Shown piece by piece: positions 37,446-45,288 of a DNA stretch of 64,000 nt (positions are counted from its first letter, which is position 1; each line of letters opens with the position of its first letter). Below the pieces are notes generated by a model. The model was not told the origin of the DNA. It made no database searches and was given only the letters and a program-made list of their open reading frames with translations. The stretch lies in contig JBDKSB010000012.1 of assembly GCA_039683095.1 (NCBI GenBank), forward strand, positions 993,846-1,057,845, given 5' to 3'. Origin of the DNA: Acidobacteriota bacterium. Its GTDB lineage: Bacteria > Acidobacteriota > Aminicenantia > Aminicenantales > Saccharicenantaceae. A program made the position numbers and the translations under genes.

Positions 37446-38144
37446 TCAGGGTCTGGACCTGAAGCCGATCGCCGAATGGGCGCCGTCGCAGAAGGGCTTG
37501 TTCGCGGACCGGCCGCACCGGCACAGGGTCACCCGGTTGCGCCGCTCGTATTCGCGGCCCCCGGCCGATTCGATAGCGATCCCGCCCCTGACCCAGATGG
37601 GGCCGGCCAGCCCCGTCCGGGGATCCTCGATCAGGCTGATGCCGGGCCGGCAGGCGGGCTCGATGGCCCGCCCCGTCGTCTTGTCCCAGGCCGCCAGGCT
37701 CCCCGACGGGCAATTGCAGGCCTCTTCGACGGCCCTGGCGCGGCACCCGGGATCATCGGACGCCCCGGCGTAGTTCCAGGCGTCCAGGCCGGCGTGGCAG
37801 AAGCGCGCCCCGATGCAGAGCTTCGGCGACCAGGTCAGGTCCACCCGGGGGCCGGCCGTCCGCTCCGCGCCGTCAAGATATGGCTCCGGCCCGGCCGTCT
37901 CGGTCCCGTCGAAAACGGCCGTGACGTGGCTGCCGTCGCAGAAGGGCTTGTTCTTCGACGCGCCGCACCGGCACAGGGCGTACGTCTCCCGCTCCGGGTA
38001 GACGGGACCCTGCTCCCATTTCGCCGGCTCGCCGTCGCTGCCGAAGGCGATCCGCTGCTCGTCCAGCGGGACCTTCCCGGAAACCAGATACGGCCCGTTC
38101 TTCGTGACCTTGATGCGGGGTTCGGCCTTGGGATCGGCGGACAT
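37446..38144 (-). CDS. Dual-CDGSH iron-sulfur protein with a central mono-cluster domain
   Basis: A 232-residue protein with two CDGSH zinc-finger-like 2Fe-2S sites, CRCGASKNKPFCDGSH (residues 58-73) and CRCGRSANKPFCDGAH near the C-terminus. Between them is a divergent 4Fe-4S-type domain with cysteines in KLCIGARFC, GCRA and CNCPSG. The order CDGSH, Fer4-like, CDGSH matches known bacterial proteins of unknown function, presumably redox or Fe-S carriers. No signal peptide. It sits upstream of ECF module 1 but separated by its promoter. Confidence 0.86.
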   Translation of the reverse strand: MSADPKAEPRIKVTKNGPYLVSGKVPLDEQRIAFGSDGEPAKWEQGPVYPERETYALCRCGASKNKPFCDGSHVTAVFDGTETAGPEPYLDGAERTAGPRVDLTWSPKLCIGARFCHAGLDAWNYAGASDDPGCRARAVEEACNCPSGSLAAWDKTTGRAIEPACRPGISLIEDPRTGLAGPIWVRGGIAIESAGGREYERRNRVTLCRCGRSANKPFCDGAHSAIGFRSRP

Positions 38145-38791: not shown

Positions 38792-40195
38792 TCAGGCCGG
38801 GCCCCACTTCAGCAGCACCGGCGGGATGAGGGCCAGGGCGGCGAAGATGGCCCAGAGGATGAGGAGCGGCAGCAGCCACTTGGCCCATTTCTCCCAGCGC
38901 AGGCCGGCCAGCCCGAGGACGCCCATGGTCACCCCCGAGGTCGGCAGCACGGGGTTGATGTACTCGGCGAACTGGAAGGCCAGCACGGCCGTCTGCCGGG
39001 TGATGCCGACGAGGTCGCCGAGCGGGGCCATGATCGGGATGGTCAGGGCCGCCTGGGCCGTGCCCGAGTGGACGAAGAAATTGATGACGCACTGGGACAG
39101 GAACATGATCTGGGCCGACAGCACCGGGTGGAGCTGAGAGATCGCCCCGGCCATGCCGGCCAGGAGCGTGTCGAGGATCTTGCCGTCCTGGGCCACGATG
39201 AGCAGGGCCCGGGCCGTGCCGATGATCAGCGCCGCGTTGACCATGTCCTTGGCCCCCTCGACGAAGGCCTTCCCAAACTCGTCGCCCTTGAGCCGGCCGG
39301 CCAGCCCGGCCAGCACGCCCATGGCCAGGAAGACGCCCGCGATCTCGTTGATGTACCACTTGTGCCTGAGGATGCCGAAGACCATGACGGCGAAGCCGCC
39401 GACGAAGACGAAGAGCACCCGCTTCTGCGGGCCGGTGAGGGCGACGCGCTCCAGGACGGGCTTGTCGACGCTGAGCTTCCTGCGCTTCTCCTGGTCCTCC
39501 TCGTAGGTCGGGCTGAGCTCCGGCCGCTTGTGTATCCTGGCCGCGTAGCGCATGACCACGGCGATGGCCACGGCCGTTCCGACGGCCCAAACGGCCAGAC
39601 GGTAGCCGAGGCCCGAGTAGAGCGGCAGACCGGCGATGCCCTGGGCGATGCCGACCGTGAAGGGATTGAAGAACGCCCCCGCGAATCCGGCCGCGGCGCC
39701 CAGGAAGCACATCGCCACCCCGACGATGGTGTCGTAGCCGAGCGACAGGGCCAGAGGGACGAAGATGAGGATGAAGGGCATGGTCTCCTCGCACATGCCC
39801 CAGATCCCGCCGCCGAGCGAAAAGATGACCATGACCACGGGGATGAGCAGCACCCGCAGGGCCTTTTTGCGGCCGAAGGTGAAGGTGATGTTGTGGATGA
39901 CGCCGCTGATGGCCCCGGTCCTCTGGATGACGTTGAAGGCGCCGCCGACGATAAACAGGATGGCAATGATGGCCGCGGCGTCGATGAAGCCGCGGGCCGG
40001 CGAGACGAACAGCCCGCCGAGGCCCTGCGGCTCGCTCGGGACCCGGTGGTAGGAGCCGGCCACGGGAACGGTCCGGCCGTCCTTCTCCACCCGCTGGTAC
40101 TCGCCGCCGGGGATGATCCAGGTGAGCGCCACGGTCAGGACGACCATGACGTAGATGAGGAGCAGCGTGTGCGGCAGGCGGAGCGGCTTCTTCAC
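38792..40195 (-). CDS. YfcC-family amino acid/dicarboxylate transporter
   Basis: A 467-residue, twelve-helix membrane protein. LTWIIPGGEYQR near the start and FFNPFTVGIAQGIAGLPLYSGLGYR are typical of the YfcC/ArcD-like family of basic amino-acid or C4-dicarboxylate antiporters. Its start overlaps the stop of the cyanophycinase gene as ATGA, so the two are translated together. Uptake or exchange of arginine, aspartate or their dipeptide would fit this pairing. Confidence 0.88.
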   Translation of the reverse strand: MKKPLRLPHTLLLIYVMVVLTVALTWIIPGGEYQRVEKDGRTVPVAGSYHRVPSEPQGLGGLFVSPARGFIDAAAIIAILFIVGGAFNVIQRTGAISGVIHNITFTFGRKKALRVLLIPVVMVIFSLGGGIWGMCEETMPFILIFVPLALSLGYDTIVGVAMCFLGAAAGFAGAFFNPFTVGIAQGIAGLPLYSGLGYRLAVWAVGTAVAIAVVMRYAARIHKRPELSPTYEEDQEKRRKLSVDKPVLERVALTGPQKRVLFVFVGGFAVMVFGILRHKWYINEIAGVFLAMGVLAGLAGRLKGDEFGKAFVEGAKDMVNAALIIGTARALLIVAQDGKILDTLLAGMAGAISQLHPVLSAQIMFLSQCVINFFVHSGTAQAALTIPIMAPLGDLVGITRQTAVLAFQFAEYINPVLPTSGVTMGVLGLAGLRWEKWAKWLLPLLILWAIFAALALIPPVLLKWGPA

Positions 40196-41091
40196 TTCGA
40201 CGGCTCCTCGGCTCGCCCGGAGGCGAGGTCATAGACGTCGCCGGCGAGGAGGACGTGCATGGTCAGGCCGTGGCCGCCGAGATGGCCGTCCGGCGCCACG
40301 GCCGTCTTCGCCCGGCGGGCGTCGTAGACGATGACCTGGCCCTCGCCGAGGACCTCGTACCTGCCGTCGGGCCGGACGAGGACGGCCGTCGACTCCTCGA
40401 TGCCGACGCCGACCAGGGCCGGGTTCTGCAGCACGACCGCGATCAGACGGTTGTGCCGCCGGCGGGTGACGAAGTGCTGGTCGATGACGGCCTTTTGGAC
40501 GAAGCCGAAACCGCGGGTGTGTTCGACGTCGTCGGCCAGGATGACCTCCCAGGTCCCCTCCTCGCCGCGTGTTCGCTTCTCGTTGCCGGTGATCATGAAC
40601 TCGCTCATGACCGCCGCGCCGGCGCTCGTCCCGCCGACGACGGCGCCCCGCGCGTAGAGGTCGAGCATGCGCTTGTGGATGGGCGTATCGAGGAGGGCCG
40701 CGGCCAGGAGCGCCTGGTCGCCACCGGAGAACCAGATCCCGCCGGCGCCGTCGAGGATCTTGTCGCTCCCGGGTTTCAGGGCCTGGTCGCGGGTCAGGTT
40801 GTAATAGACGACATCCCTGGCGCCGTTGCCCTTGAACTCCGTGAGAAGCTCCGGCCCGACCTCGTCGGGCGAGCCGCTGGCCATGGTGAAGATGACGATC
40901 CGGCCCGTGTCGTGAGCCTCGGCCAGCCGGATGTAGCGCTTCATCAGCGGCGCGTCGCGCTCGCCGCCGCCGATGATGAAGAGATAGCCCTTGGGCAGCG
41001 GGGCGGCCGGGGCGGGGCCTTTCGCGGCGCAGGCCCCCGCGGCCAGGGCGATCAAAACGAGCGGCAGGATGGCGGCTGGGTTCTTTTTCAA
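40192..41091 (-). CDS. cphB: Secreted cyanophycinase-like peptidase (S51), TTG start
   Basis: A 299-residue S51 serine peptidase. The nucleophile elbow VVGGTSAGAAVMS, FSGGDQ and VIDQHF match cyanophycinase, which cuts multi-Arg-Asp into beta-Asp-Arg dipeptides. The best start is a TTG at 41091: GGAGG lies 7 bases upstream and the protein then begins with LKKNPAAILPLVLIAL, a clean lipoprotein signal ending AAGAC. An ATG at 41118 has no ribosome site. Export implies use of external polymer. Translationally coupled to the YfcC transporter. Confidence 0.88.
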   Translation of the reverse strand: MKKNPAAILPLVLIALAAGACAAKGPAPAAPLPKGYLFIIGGGERDAPLMKRYIRLAEAHDTGRIVIFTMASGSPDEVGPELLTEFKGNGARDVVYYNLTRDQALKPGSDKILDGAGGIWFSGGDQALLAAALLDTPIHKRMLDLYARGAVVGGTSAGAAVMSEFMITGNEKRTRGEEGTWEVILADDVEHTRGFGFVQKAVIDQHFVTRRRHNRLIAVVLQNPALVGVGIEESTAVLVRPDGRYEVLGEGQVIVYDARRAKTAVAPDGHLGGHGLTMHVLLAGDVYDLASGRAEEPSK

Positions 41092-41144
41092 GCTCTTCCT
41101 CCGGGGACCGGTGATCATCGAGCGCCTATCTTATCAAAAAGCGC

Positions 41145-43838
41145 TCAGAAGGCGATATCGACCGTCAGCGGCTTGCCCGGCCCGACCCGGACGGGCGCCA
41201 GCCAGATCACCCGGACGGCGTCGCCCGTCTTCCGGACCGTGGCCGCGGGCGTCGTCCCGGCCACGGCGGCCTTGATCGAGCGGGGGGCCTTGCCGGCGAC
41301 CGCGGGCGGCAGGGTGAAATCGAGCTCCGCGAGCTCGACCGAACCGGCCCCGGCCTCGAGCCGGAGGGCCAGCTTCCCGCCGGCCTCGGACCTCTGGGAG
41401 TAGGCGCCCCAGCCCGAGCCGGCCGTCCAGACCGTCCGGAAATCGTCCGCGTTCATCTTGGGGTCGAATCCCATCCTCTTTTCCGGCCCGGAATAGGAAT
41501 AGCCGGCCAGGGCCAGCAGCACGCCCCACGAGGACATGGCCCGGGCGTAATGATGCCCGCATTCGACCTCGTTCCAGGGATTGCGGCGGAGGCCGTCGTA
41601 GCGGTCGCGGACCGCCTTGACCAGGCTCAGCCCCTCCTCGAGCAGGCCTTCGTAGATGAGATGCGAGGCGACCTGGTACTCGATGCCCGTCCAGACCTCG
41701 TCGGAGTACGGGAACGGCAGGGGCGGCCGGCCGCCCCTGGGCCACGAGCAGAGGAGCAGGCCCTTCTCGTCGTTGAGGGCGTAGGTCCGCTGGACGTTGG
41801 CGAAGTTCCGGAAGTCGGCGAGGAAGTTGTGCACGTAGATGGCCCGCAGCGACGACTTGATGCGCTCGGCCGGCAGACAGCGGTCAAGACCGGCGACCAT
41901 GCCCAGCCACTGGCCGAGGAGCATGTCCGACAGGCAGCCCTCGCCGTACTGGTATTTCTTCTCCATGACCTTGTCGTATTTCTGGACGTAGTACTCGCCG
42001 TTCCAGAGCGCGGCGTCGTAGGCCGCCCGGGCCTTGTCGTACATGGCCAGGTAGACCTTGGCCGACGTGATGTCGCCGGCGGCATAGGCCATGGCCTTGC
42101 CGGCCTTGAGCGCCCCGAGGTAGAAGCCGCTGAGCATGCTGTTCGGGCCGTAGAACTCGATGTCGTAGGTGTTGTGCTGTTCGCCTTCGAGCAGGCCGTC
42201 GCGGTCGGCGTCCCAGGCTTTCCAGGCGTAGTCGAGGGCCTTCTTGGCCTGCGGCCAGAGCTTCTTGAGCCAGGCCGTGTCGCCCGAGATCTGCCAGTCG
42301 CGATAGAGGCTGATGACGCGGCCCAGCTGGCCGTCGGCGGCCGGCTTGAAGTTCCAGAGGACGCCGCTCCCGAGCGGCAGCGAGGTGCGGAACATCATCG
42401 CCCCGTCGGGCTTGACGTTGTTCAGGAAGTCCGTCTCGCGCATGGTCCGCTCGAGCGCGGGGAAGAGGAAAGCCAGCGACTGGGCGTAGTTCCAGACGTG
42501 CGCGCAGTTGAGCGGGCAGCAGCCGCCCTGGTCGCCGCAGCCCTCGAAGCCGAAGAAGTTCCCGTCCTCGAGGCGGAAGCCGGTCGTCGTGCGAATGATG
42601 GCGGCCTGGCTCGAGACGGCGTCGAGGACGTAGGGCGGCAGGGTCGTCCCGAAAAAGGCGTCGTGGAAGGCCCGGCTCGTCTTCTCGAGGCGGTCGAGGT
42701 TGGCCTGCAGGTATTCGGCCGCGGCCCAGGCGTCGGCGTGCCTCGTCGCGTAGTAGTTCCTGAAGATGCGGCCGCGCTGCTCGGGCACGACGTCGAAGTA
42801 GTTGATGAGGTTGGGGAAATTCCAGGAGACGATGAACGGCAGGACGACCTCCTCGCCGGGGCCGATCGTGGCCATGAGGCCGAGCGTCCCGACGTCGGTC
42901 TGCTTGTCCGGCGACGGCGAGACCTCGGCCAGGTCCTTGAGCCTGCCGTCGGCGGAGAAGTCGTCCCAGAAGATCTGGAGATCGTCCCACCATTCGCCGC
43001 GGACCCAGTGGCTGAGGTAGGTGACGTCGGGCCAGGGGGTCGCCAGGGCCATCGTGCCGAACGCCGGCTCGCCGGGCTTGACCTTGCGCGAGGACATGGC
43101 CAGGCCGCGGAGCGCCGGCGTGGCCCTGATCTCGTTGACGTTCTGGCCGAACTTGTCGTTGGCCAGCCCGTCGACCTGGCCGACGCCGTCGTAGCCGATG
43201 GGGTTGATGATCGAGCCGGCGATGGTGACCTTGACCGGCGCGGCGCCCGTGTTCTTGACGCGGTAGCGCAGGACGAAGGCCGGGATGCCGGAATCGTCCG
43301 GCTCCAGCGGGACGAGCGGGTTGAAGGCTTCGAGCCTGACCGCGAGCGGGACCTGGCTGTCGGAAAGCTCGACCTCGGCGTAGGGGTACTCGCCCTTGAA
43401 GCTGGCCTTCTCCATGCGCGGCAGGCCGGGCACGAAGACGCGCTTGAAGCCGAAGCCGGTCGTGAACGGCGGCGCGAGCGGACCTTCCAGGACCCGGACG
43501 GCCTTGCGGCCGGACTGTTCGCAGTACAGGGCGAAGAAGGTGAAAGGCATGTGGACGCCCTTGCCCGGCCGGTTGAAGATCTCCCAGTCGCGGAGGTTGC
43601 CGCGGCCGCCGAGCGAGATCGTGCCGGTGCCGACGCCGCCGAGCGGAAAGGCGACCTCGCCGAGCGCCGGGCCCTCGAAGGCGCGGACCGGGCCGGAGCG
43701 CACGAGCTCGTCATGGCCGTACGGTTTCGAGATCGACGCCGCCTGTCCGGCGGCCAGAGCGGGCGCGGCGAGCGGGACCAGCAGCGACAGGGCCAGCAGG
43801 CGGGCCGGGGCCCGCCTCGGGAGGATCGGACCTTTCAT
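41145..43838 (-). CDS. GH116-family beta-glucosidase (GBA2-like), secreted
   Basis: An 897-residue protein with a signal peptide and the two-domain layout of GH116: an N-terminal beta-sandwich (GGVGTGTISLGGRGNLRDWE) and a C-terminal alpha-barrel. Active-site blocks include FGFEGCGDQGGCCPLNC-AHVWNY and HNTYDIEFYGPN, the latter with the acid/base Asp. Family members hydrolyse beta-glucosides, beta-xylosides or glucosylceramide. The GGAGG site is well placed. A polysaccharide or glycolipid substrate outside the cell is likely. Confidence 0.87.
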   Translation of the reverse strand: MKGPILPRRAPARLLALSLLVPLAAPALAAGQAASISKPYGHDELVRSGPVRAFEGPALGEVAFPLGGVGTGTISLGGRGNLRDWEIFNRPGKGVHMPFTFFALYCEQSGRKAVRVLEGPLAPPFTTGFGFKRVFVPGLPRMEKASFKGEYPYAEVELSDSQVPLAVRLEAFNPLVPLEPDDSGIPAFVLRYRVKNTGAAPVKVTIAGSIINPIGYDGVGQVDGLANDKFGQNVNEIRATPALRGLAMSSRKVKPGEPAFGTMALATPWPDVTYLSHWVRGEWWDDLQIFWDDFSADGRLKDLAEVSPSPDKQTDVGTLGLMATIGPGEEVVLPFIVSWNFPNLINYFDVVPEQRGRIFRNYYATRHADAWAAAEYLQANLDRLEKTSRAFHDAFFGTTLPPYVLDAVSSQAAIIRTTTGFRLEDGNFFGFEGCGDQGGCCPLNCAHVWNYAQSLAFLFPALERTMRETDFLNNVKPDGAMMFRTSLPLGSGVLWNFKPAADGQLGRVISLYRDWQISGDTAWLKKLWPQAKKALDYAWKAWDADRDGLLEGEQHNTYDIEFYGPNSMLSGFYLGALKAGKAMAYAAGDITSAKVYLAMYDKARAAYDAALWNGEYYVQKYDKVMEKKYQYGEGCLSDMLLGQWLGMVAGLDRCLPAERIKSSLRAIYVHNFLADFRNFANVQRTYALNDEKGLLLCSWPRGGRPPLPFPYSDEVWTGIEYQVASHLIYEGLLEEGLSLVKAVRDRYDGLRRNPWNEVECGHHYARAMSSWGVLLALAGYSYSGPEKRMGFDPKMNADDFRTVWTAGSGWGAYSQRSEAGGKLALRLEAGAGSVELAELDFTLPPAVAGKAPRSIKAAVAGTTPAATVRKTGDAVRVIWLAPVRVGPGKPLTVDIAF

Positions 43839-43908: not shown

Positions 43909-44373
43909 TCACCCCCGGCGCCCGCGGAGCTTGGCGATCTTGCGCTCCATGTCGCCGTAGTGCGTGCCCTGCCAGAAAACGCGCTGGCAGCCCGGGCAGA
44001 TGGCGAACGACGCGGCGTGCTCGGTGACGAAGGGCGTGACCAGGTTCCTGGCCCGCTCGCGGCTCAGGGGCCTGAGCGGGAGATTGCAGGCGATGCAGCG
44101 CGTGTTCGGCCGGACCGCGTCCCAGAGGCCGAACTCGTCGAGGACCTGGACGACCTGGTCCTCCCAGTCGTCGCTGCGGACGAACAGGCGGTTGGGCCGT
44201 TTGGCCGTCCGCTCGATGAGGCCGGTGTCGCGGGTCAGGAGGACTCGGCCTTCGCGGCGGGCCAGGGCGGCCAGGTCGCGGTCCTCGGCCCTGGAGAAGT
44301 AGGCGACGTCGAAGCCGAGGATGCGCAGCCACTTGGCCAGCCTGCCGAGCATGCAGTCGGCGACAAAGGTCAT
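43909..44373 (-). CDS. Mut7-C/PIN-like RNase domain protein with zinc ribbon
   Basis: A 154-residue protein matching the Mut7-C domain: FVADCMLGRLAKWLRILGFDV at the N-terminus, RVLLTRDTGLIER in the middle, and a C-terminal zinc ribbon with CIACNLPL and CPGCQRVFW. The acidic residues of a PIN-type nuclease (Asp6, Asp in TRDTG) are present. Likely RNA-binding or RNA-cleaving; targets unknown. It follows the metal transporter by 7 bases on the same strand. Confidence 0.88.
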   Translation of the reverse strand: MTFVADCMLGRLAKWLRILGFDVAYFSRAEDRDLAALARREGRVLLTRDTGLIERTAKRPNRLFVRSDDWEDQVVQVLDEFGLWDAVRPNTRCIACNLPLRPLSRERARNLVTPFVTEHAASFAICPGCQRVFWQGTHYGDMERKIAKLRGRRG

Positions 44374-44380
44374 GGGCCTC

Positions 44381-45169
44381 CTAGAGGCCGAGGAATTGGA
44401 CGGCCAGGCCGGAGACGAGGATCATCAGGCCGGCCAGGGCGTGGGAATAGCGCTCGAGCTTGCCCAGCTTGACGAAGCTCGCCCCGTACGAGGCCGCGGA
44501 GATGATGACCAGCATCGTGGCGATGGTCGCCAGCCCGAAGGCGCCGGCCACCAGGGCCACTCCGGCCGTGCTGTGGCGGGCGGCCGGATACATCACCAGC
44601 GGGATGAGCGGCTCGCAGGGGCCGAAAACGAAGATCGTGAACAGGACCCAGGGCGTGATGTTGGCCTTGCCGGGGTCCTCGCCGTGGGGATGGGCGTGCT
44701 CGGCCAGCTCGTGGGTGTGGGCGTGGGCGTGCTGGTGGACGTGCTCGTGGTCCGTGTCGTGCGGGCCCTGGTCGGGACCGTGGGGATGGACGACCGCGTC
44801 CTCGTGGTCGTGGAAGTGCGGGTGGGTGTGGGGCTGGCCGCGCCAGGCCCGGCGCATGCCCCAGGCGAAATAGGCGAAACCGAAGCCGATGAGGAGCCAG
44901 GCCGCTATCGCGCCGCGCGTCGATTCGACGCCCTCGAGCCTGGCCACGGCGATGCCCAGGGCGATTCCGGCGAAGCCGAGGACGACGGAGCTCAGGATGT
45001 GGCCGAGGCCGGCGAAGAAGGAGACGAAGAGGGTCTTGCGGAGCGTCCAGTTGCGGGCCCGGCCGATGACGATGAACGGCAGGTAGTGGTCGGGGCCGAT
45101 GACCGTGTGGACGAGGCCGAGGGTGGCGGCCGTACCGGCCAGCACCCAGATGTCGTGGCTGATCATCAT
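44381..45169 (-). CDS. NicO/UreH-type nickel/cobalt transporter with long His-rich loop
   Basis: A 262-residue membrane protein with about six helices. The first helix carries LGLVHTVIGPDHYLPF, the metal motif of the NicO/RcnA/UreH group. A cytoplasmic or periplasmic loop (residues 112-165) has about twenty histidines arranged as HTHPHFHDH, HEHVHQHAHAH and similar. It probably moves Ni2+ or Co2+, which would suit the hydrogenase operon in this window. Direction of transport cannot be told. tRNA-Ala lies just upstream. Confidence 0.83.
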   Translation of the reverse strand: MMISHDIWVLAGTAATLGLVHTVIGPDHYLPFIVIGRARNWTLRKTLFVSFFAGLGHILSSVVLGFAGIALGIAVARLEGVESTRGAIAAWLLIGFGFAYFAWGMRRAWRGQPHTHPHFHDHEDAVVHPHGPDQGPHDTDHEHVHQHAHAHTHELAEHAHPHGEDPGKANITPWVLFTIFVFGPCEPLIPLVMYPAARHSTAGVALVAGAFGLATIATMLVIISAASYGASFVKLGKLERYSHALAGLMILVSGLAVQFLGL

Positions 45170-45212: not shown

Positions 45213-45288
45213 TGGTGGACGGTAGGAGATTCGAACTCCCGACCTCAGCGTTGCGAACGCCGCGCTCTCCCAGCTGAGCTAACCGCCC
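45213..45288 (-). tRNA. tRNA-Ala (anticodon CGC)
   Basis: All four arms fold on the minus strand: acceptor GGGCGGT/ACCGTCC, D-arm GCTC/GAGC, anticodon arm CGGCG/CGCTG with loop TTCGCAA (anticodon CGC), and T-arm GGGAG/CTCCT with TTCGAAT. A G3-U70 wobble pair, the alanine identity element, is present. The terminal CCA is encoded. Length 76. Confidence 0.97.

Follow-up and report, generated by a model that had tools for sequence, protein, structure and literature searches.

A probable cyanophycin-scavenging gene pair, an exported cyanophycinase overlapping a YfcC-like carrier, in an Aminicenantia genome

Cyanophycin use in known systems and in the window pair

Dedicated loci for the use of environmental cyanophycin have been described previously. 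The cyanophycin utilization locus of strain L21-Spi-D4 (Ben Hania et al. 2017), as described in PMC10206079, comprises a cyanophycinase, iadA, and a transporter, and within the Acidobacteriota, exported cyanophycinases have been reported and cyanophycin use proposed for Candidatus Sulfomarinibacter (PMC8528874). Here, we describe a pair of minus-strand genes in a 64,000-nucleotide (nt) stretch of an Acidobacteriota genome of the class Aminicenantia (assembly GCA_039683095.1, contig JBDKSB010000012.1, positions 993,846 to 1,057,845; hereafter, the window). The pair encodes an exported cyanophycinase (peptidase S51; 299 amino acids, 40192..41091) and a YfcC-like transporter (DcuC family, PF03606; 467 amino acids, 38792..40195), both exactly where an original prediction, made from the sequence alone, had located them. 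We consider it likely that the two genes form a translationally coupled cyanophycin-scavenging kit of an Aminicenantes bacterium. The exported, probably lipid-anchored cyanophycinase would cut cyanophycin, which other microbes lay down as a nitrogen store, outside the cytoplasm to β-Asp-Arg, the coupled YfcC-like carrier would bring this dipeptide intact across the inner membrane, and a cytoplasmic IadA would split it into Asp and Arg. Coupling would keep the cyanophycinase and the carrier in step.

Like the L21-Spi-D4 locus, the window pair combines a cyanophycinase with a transporter for environmental cyanophycin, but iadA is inside the locus described in PMC10206079 and ~261 kb away, on the same contig, here. 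The window pair therefore resembles a cyanophycin utilization locus in its working but is not a complete one, as a clustered dipeptidase is absent. Candidatus Sulfomarinibacter belongs to the same phylum and shares an export signal (Sec in that case), the lack of a synthetase, and an isoaspartyl dipeptidase (in one metagenome-assembled genome [MAG]), but it belongs to a different class, and a coupled YfcC carrier is not mentioned in the available text of PMC8528874. The extracellular CphE of Pseudomonas is likewise an exported serine-type cyanophycinase but has Thr at the place of CphB Gln173 (PMC3235067), a position at which the window protein keeps the Gln of CphB. The window protein shares its predicted fold and all nine active-site residues with the intracellular CphB of Synechocystis (3en0 and 7uqw) but is ~30% identical to it, has an export signal, and is encoded in a genome without a synthetase above cut-off. 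The window carrier belongs to the carrier family of YfcC and ArcE (PF03606; ArcE is assigned to TC 2.A.118 in PMC5300872), but its score is under the YfcC equivalog cut-off, and it is coupled with an enzyme that cuts a polymer.

Clusters that join cyanophycin scavenging with a transporter have already been published (PMC10206079), as have exported cyanophycinases of Acidobacteriota that lack a synthetase (PMC8528874). No paper joining YfcC and cyanophycin was found in our literature search, and the papers naming both cyanophycin and Aminicenantes do not, in their available text, ascribe cyanophycin use to the latter. The window pair puts cyanophycin use by an Aminicenantes lineage, represented here by MAGs only, on a firm genomic footing, and it gives a likely identity to the carrier of the cyanophycin breakdown product. 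The description of the organism as uncultured in the original prediction fits the records of its relatives, which are MAGs, many of them titled Candidatus Aminicenantes.

Cyanophycinase, carrier, and conservation of the pair

The window protein scored above the curated cut-off of the cyanophycinase model (TIGR02069, 166.1 versus 126.6 bits) and above that of PF03575 (46.1 versus 23.9 bits), which bears out the enzyme identity originally predicted. Its PDB matches by sequence, 7uqv, 3en0, and 7uqw, are solved proteins named cyanophycinase. The predicted model (predicted local distance difference test [pLDDT] score of 84.9) had its best fold match in 7uqw (template modeling [TM] scores of 0.78/0.88; E = 2.2e-26), which is CphB with a bound cyanophycin dimer, and query TM scores were 0.76 to 0.79 against 7uqw, 3en0, and 7uqv versus 0.44 to 0.58 against PepE structures. 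CphB has the catalytic residues Ser132, His174, and Glu201 and the binding residues Gln101, Asp172, Gln173, Arg178, Arg180, and Arg183 (PMC3235067), and the roles of His174 and Arg178 are also given in PMC12661447. All nine are present in the window protein, in the same order, as S156, H206, E233, Q126, D204, Q205, R210, R212, and R215. Across 80 relatives, eight of these columns were kept in every protein, and the glutamate was kept in 79, with one gap. Assignment as a PepE-type peptidase was rejected (PepE model, 18.7 bits versus a cut-off of 156), with PepE fold matches weaker than those of the cyanophycinase type. Judged from sequence and predicted structure, the exported protein belongs to the cyanophycinase family, its active site is intact, and it is predicted to be active as an enzyme.

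The best-placed start of the cyanophycinase is the TTG at 41089-41091, with a GGAGG ribosome-binding site (41098..41102) 6 nt ahead of it, as originally proposed. N-termini were compared by eye in eight of the nine cyanophycinase-bearing members of the window genus, own genome included, the ninth being interrupted by a contig end. The start at the corresponding place is TTG in five, GTG in one, and ATG in two, and GGAGG or GAAGG precedes it in seven of the eight. Some genus members, the window included, have further in-frame starts upstream; the in-frame ATG at 41116..41118 would lengthen the protein by nine codons but was judged not to be the start, as the nearest relative (L002) has no matching ATG. 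The presence of this ATG also corrects the earlier claim that ATG-only calling would miss the gene; its start would be misplaced instead.

Read directly from the sequence, the TTG opens a signal sequence with a lipobox (41029..41091), MKKNPAAILPLVLIALAAGA followed by the cysteine C21, which under the lipobox rule is presumably the lipid-attachment residue. A hydrophobic stretch ending in cysteine follows the start in all eight genus members with an intact N-terminus, in agreement with the lipoprotein signal predicted earlier, and the cyanophycinase is probably lipid anchored. More widely, a hydrophobic stretch lies ahead of the cyanophycinase core in 77 of the 80 relatives (the remaining three gave no N-terminus to judge), whereas in the sister-genus proteins, examined by eye, this stretch is present and the lipobox cysteine is absent. 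The export signal in the window and in relatives is consistent with an external substrate and uptake of its product, as originally suggested.

The stop of the cyanophycinase gene and the start of the transporter gene overlap by 4 nt (40192..40195). Such an overlap had been predicted as ATGA; the overlap itself is present, but it reads GTGA in the window, and the transporter starts with GTG. The "YfcC transporter" of the original prediction holds at the level of the DcuC family (PF03606, 348 bits versus a gathering cut-off of 23.1) but not at that of the YfcC equivalog (NF008611, 360.1 bits, under the cut-off of 500). By these scores, the transporter is a YfcC-like protein of the DcuC family and not an equivalog of Escherichia coli YfcC. 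We take YfcC and ArcE to share both PF03606 and 2.A.118. No PDB relative of the transporter was found by sequence at E ≤ 0.1.

A search of 34 genomes of the family (cyanophycinase threshold, E ≤ 1e-20) recovered a cyanophycinase in 26 of them. These are 9 of the 13 genomes of the window genus, counting the own genome, and 17 of the 19 of a sister genus, for which several matching records bear the title Candidatus Saccharicenans or Aminicenantes. In all nine cyanophycinase-bearing members of the window genus, whose enzymes are 62 to 81% identical to the window enzyme, the pair is adjacent with a 4-nt overlap (ATGA in five and GTGA in four). Adjacency conserved in this way is more than chance. 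The four genus genomes without a cyanophycinase are also without a close yfcC orthologue: two had no match, and two had only a 42 to 44% identical paralogue.

Beyond the family, a genome_contigs scan of one genome per species (84,980 species) yielded 418 relatives of the cyanophycinase, of which the best 80 were kept. Eight of these 80 loci come from members of the window genus, and many of the rest from sister-genus genomes, that already figure in the family search above; phyla were taken from record titles, and MAG titles may be wrong. At 44 of the 80 loci, the cyanophycinase has a yfcC downstream on the same strand (44 of 77 when loci with less than 900 nt beyond the gene are set aside); this share applies to the closest relatives only and includes 8 of the genus members already counted. 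The carrier is mostly directly downstream, with a gap of ~0.4 to 0.9 kb at L122, L142, and L151, and a 4-nt overlap is possible at 25 of the 44 loci. One additional locus (L092) has a divergent carrier.

Carriers of this family were also seen in other settings. In two members of the window genus, a second carrier of the transporter's family, 42 to 44% identical, stands directly behind a different M20 peptidase (L074:5001-7615 and L073:5579-8165), which suggests that YfcC-like carriers pair repeatedly with peptidases. In another genome (G002; L071:4886-7486), a YfcC-like gene is convergent to a gene for an AstE/AspA-family protein, of the superfamily of CphZ; hydrolases of cyanophycin dipeptides are annotated as the succinylglutamate desuccinylase/aspartoacylase family, according to PMC10206079.

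Fate of the product and competing explanations

As the original prediction had anticipated, the genome contains an isoaspartyl dipeptidase and no cyanophycin synthetase above cut-off. The best synthetase match in the own genome (95.27% complete) reached 114 bits against a cut-off of 850, and none of the 34 family genomes passed, compared to 1 of 14 control genomes. Weak matches to the synthetase model, also found in all 14 controls, cover mostly its C-terminal half and otherwise a middle stretch, and they probably represent Mur ligases and ATP-grasp enzymes. A storage cycle for cyanophycin was rejected, since no synthetase reached the cut-off. The IadA isoaspartyl dipeptidase (TIGR01975, 471 versus 331 bits; G000:C12:770813-771967) begins MITLIRGG..., without a signal sequence, and IadA scored above cut-off in 32 of the 34 family genomes, own genome included.

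At the 80 related loci, dipeptidases are kept beside the cyanophycinase (a PepT-like M20 peptidase at 31 loci and IadA at 3), and by eye they carry no signal sequence; for this reason, the dipeptide rather than free arginine would be what enters the cytoplasm. We infer that the YfcC-like carrier takes β-Asp-Arg and that the organism lives on cyanophycin. No report of β-Asp-Arg as a substrate of the YfcC family was found in our literature search.

Several observations weigh against this scavenging scheme. None of the 17 cyanophycinase-bearing genomes of the sister genus has a yfcC inside the 1.5-kb flanks of the cyanophycinase, and in the 8 with both genes on one contig, the two are ~15 to 21 kb apart on opposite strands, an arrangement that speaks against coupling being strictly required. 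A single receptor query gave no TonB receptor next to the pair in the window genus, leaving passage of the polymer through the outer membrane unexplained. The proposed lipid anchoring is read from a motif, and the top PDB sequence match of the enzyme, 7uqv, is titled "pseudo-CphB," so that likeness to it says little on activity. IadA is also present in the four genus genomes without a cyanophycinase and is thus not specific to a cyanophycin pathway. In the own genome, IadA is followed by an NhaC-family transporter (L057:6775-9520, G000:C12; TIGR00931, 457.7 bits versus a cut-off of 370; arginine/ornithine antiporter model, 351 of 650 bits). Since the arginine/ornithine exchanger of Halobacterium is an NhaC-family protein, as reported in PMC5300872, this transporter is a real alternative and possibly provides an uptake route for the isoaspartyl dipeptide. 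The order IadA then NhaC was also seen in G007 and in a sister-genus genome (G021).

The carrier's own relatives point to the alternative that survives best, which we nonetheless regard as unlikely: splitting of the dipeptide would take place outside the cytoplasm, with the YfcC-like protein importing free arginine in exchange for a product, as ArcE does. PMC5300872 places ArcE in the "basic amino acid antiporter" family TC 2.A.118 and describes it as an arginine/ornithine exchanger, a further point against dipeptide uptake. The NCBI name for YfcC is putative basic amino acid antiporter. External splitting would have candidate enzymes in two Asparaginase_2 proteins of the own genome (L158:4809-6056 and L159:4834-5997), which have twin-arginine-like N-termini and by eye resemble glycosylasparaginases; a glycosylasparaginase hydrolyzing β-aspartyl peptides is cited in PMC10206079. 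However, Asparaginase_2 occurs in none of the 19 sister-genus genomes, 17 of which have a cyanophycinase, and the M20 and IadA dipeptidases at cyanophycinase-yfcC loci are without signal sequences. Arginine exchange is further disfavored by the arginine deiminase search, which gave 38.8 bits against a cut-off of 489.1 in the own genome; these matches were weak and partial only, and arginine deiminase was rejected as the fate of arginine. One arginase-family gene is present in the own genome.

It is improbable that the substrate of the exported S51 enzyme is, instead of cyanophycin, a different isoaspartyl or aspartate polymer or else damaged proteins. The S51 family does include other specificities, such as that of PepE; the M20 neighbor in other phyla has a poly(aspartic acid) hydrolase (7ljh) among its fold matches; and one of the nearest structures carries the pseudo-CphB title. 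On the other side stand the TIGR02069 score above cut-off and the low PepE score, the complete binding set of Q, D, Q, R, R, and R, and a top fold match to a cyanophycinase holding a cyanophycin dimer. That the two genes are mere neighbors and YfcC has another substrate is very improbable: the separation in the sister genus and the second carrier behind a different M20 peptidase, in both such loci read, would fit, but the 4-nt overlap is kept in 9 of 9 genus members and the carrier is downstream at 44 of 80 related loci.

Loci in other phyla and neighboring genes

By title and similarity, the 80 loci split into 37 Aminicenantes-like loci and 43 others; one of the latter (L079), titled Pirellula, encodes a protein 73% identical to the window enzyme. 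A carrier is present at 31 of the 43 other loci, and the titles of these 31 include Ignavibacteria, Bacteroidetes, Chlorobi, Neomarinimicrobiota, KSB1, Calditrichia, and a Deltaproteobacterium. Each of the 31 additionally holds a dipeptidase candidate, a PepT-like M20 peptidase in 29 and IadA in 2. Among the 14 Aminicenantes-like loci with a carrier, one has IadA, and the other 13 lack both. Outside the Aminicenantes-like group, the genes for M20, cyanophycinase, and carrier usually stand in this order and are followed by those for one more protein that looks exported, an RpiR regulator, and a TonB-dependent receptor; the exported-looking protein carries a type IX sorting tail in the single member that was scanned. 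In five Bacteroides-type loci, a SusD-family protein comes ahead of M20, cyanophycinase, and carrier. Neighbor families were sought with one query each, and by this measure a TonB receptor or SusD occurs at 25 of the 31 carrier loci. An in-frame open reading frame at a place first labeled SusC had no Pfam match, and the label was not used. Proximity of a TonB receptor to a cyanophycinase was noted earlier in Citromicrobium (PMC3400609). With an RpiR regulator and a TonB receptor after the pair, L124:5473-8810 and similar loci resemble a polysaccharide utilization locus for a peptide polymer.

The PepT-like M20 peptidase is encoded directly upstream of the cyanophycinase at its 31 loci (including L154:4835-5935 and L134:4900-5991) and never occurs together with IadA, which is found at L087, L151, and L157. 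The L154 protein scored 256.1 bits on the PepT-like model (cut-off, 274.25), which places the M20 proteins close to, yet outside, the curated PepT-like group, as judged by this score. Seven residues that we take to be the metal and catalytic residues of M20 enzymes (H72, D74, D102, E135, E136, D158, and H339) are invariant in 31 of 31 proteins. The predicted L134 model (pLDDT, 94.3) matched best the PepT-type structures 3gb0 and 3rza, and the poly(aspartic acid) hydrolase 7ljh among its fold matches is itself of the M20 family. By eye, no N-terminal signal was apparent in the 31 proteins; a hydrophobicity scan gave several N-terminal stretches above 1.5, the value used for the cyanophycinases.

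Within the 31 genomes with the M20 gene, many of them MAGs of unstated completeness, no IadA was found at E ≤ 1e-50 or above cut-off, and no cyanophycin synthetase was found at E ≤ 1e-100 or above cut-off. Most of these genomes may hold another dipeptidase, since Asparaginase_2 (IaaA or glycosylasparaginase) turned up in 22 of them and CphZ lay outside the search. The other nine, including Bacteroides ilei (L134, G047), are without both Asparaginase_2 and IadA. In the window's family, a search run without a positive control found M20 in 0 of 34 genomes at E ≤ 1e-30.

According to Sharon and Schmeing (PMC10206079), Firmicutes and Bacteroidota have isoaspartyl dipeptidases that are yet to be discovered. 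On genomic grounds, the M20 peptidase is a fair candidate for the one of Bacteroidota. A broader proposal, which we advance tentatively, is that cyanophycinase-YfcC is the core of a peptide-polymer locus across phyla, in which a cytoplasmic M20 peptidase, rather than IadA, IaaA, or CphZ, may split β-Asp-Arg, with YfcC as the carrier of this dipeptide and M20 as the missing Bacteroidota dipeptidase. This widespread M20 form is a more novel lead than the window pair itself, offering a specific candidate that can be cloned for a gap acknowledged in the literature (PMC10206079). Because one such locus (L134) is in a named strain, Bacteroides ilei Marseille-P3208 by record title, the dipeptidase question is directly testable.

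In the window, the upstream neighbor of the pair encodes a GH116 family protein with a likely signal sequence (41145..43838, minus strand; PF12215 and PF04685). This gene adjoins the pair in seven of nine genus loci, with one of the remaining two ending at a contig edge, but the protein is probably a neighbor outside the cyanophycin pathway. Beyond it on the same strand are genes for a Mut7-C RNase domain protein (43909..44373; PF01927) and a DsbD_2/NicO-like membrane protein (44381..45169; PF13386, 32.0 bits; PF03824, 26.5 bits, just missing the cut-off of 27.7). A pathway role was weighed for all three neighbors, and they were considered unrelated. A tRNA-Ala (cgc) gene lies just upstream of this same-strand gene run (45213-45288, minus strand), and a protein with CDGSH iron-sulfur and divergent 4Fe-4S domains (PF09360 and PF06902) is encoded at 37446-38144.

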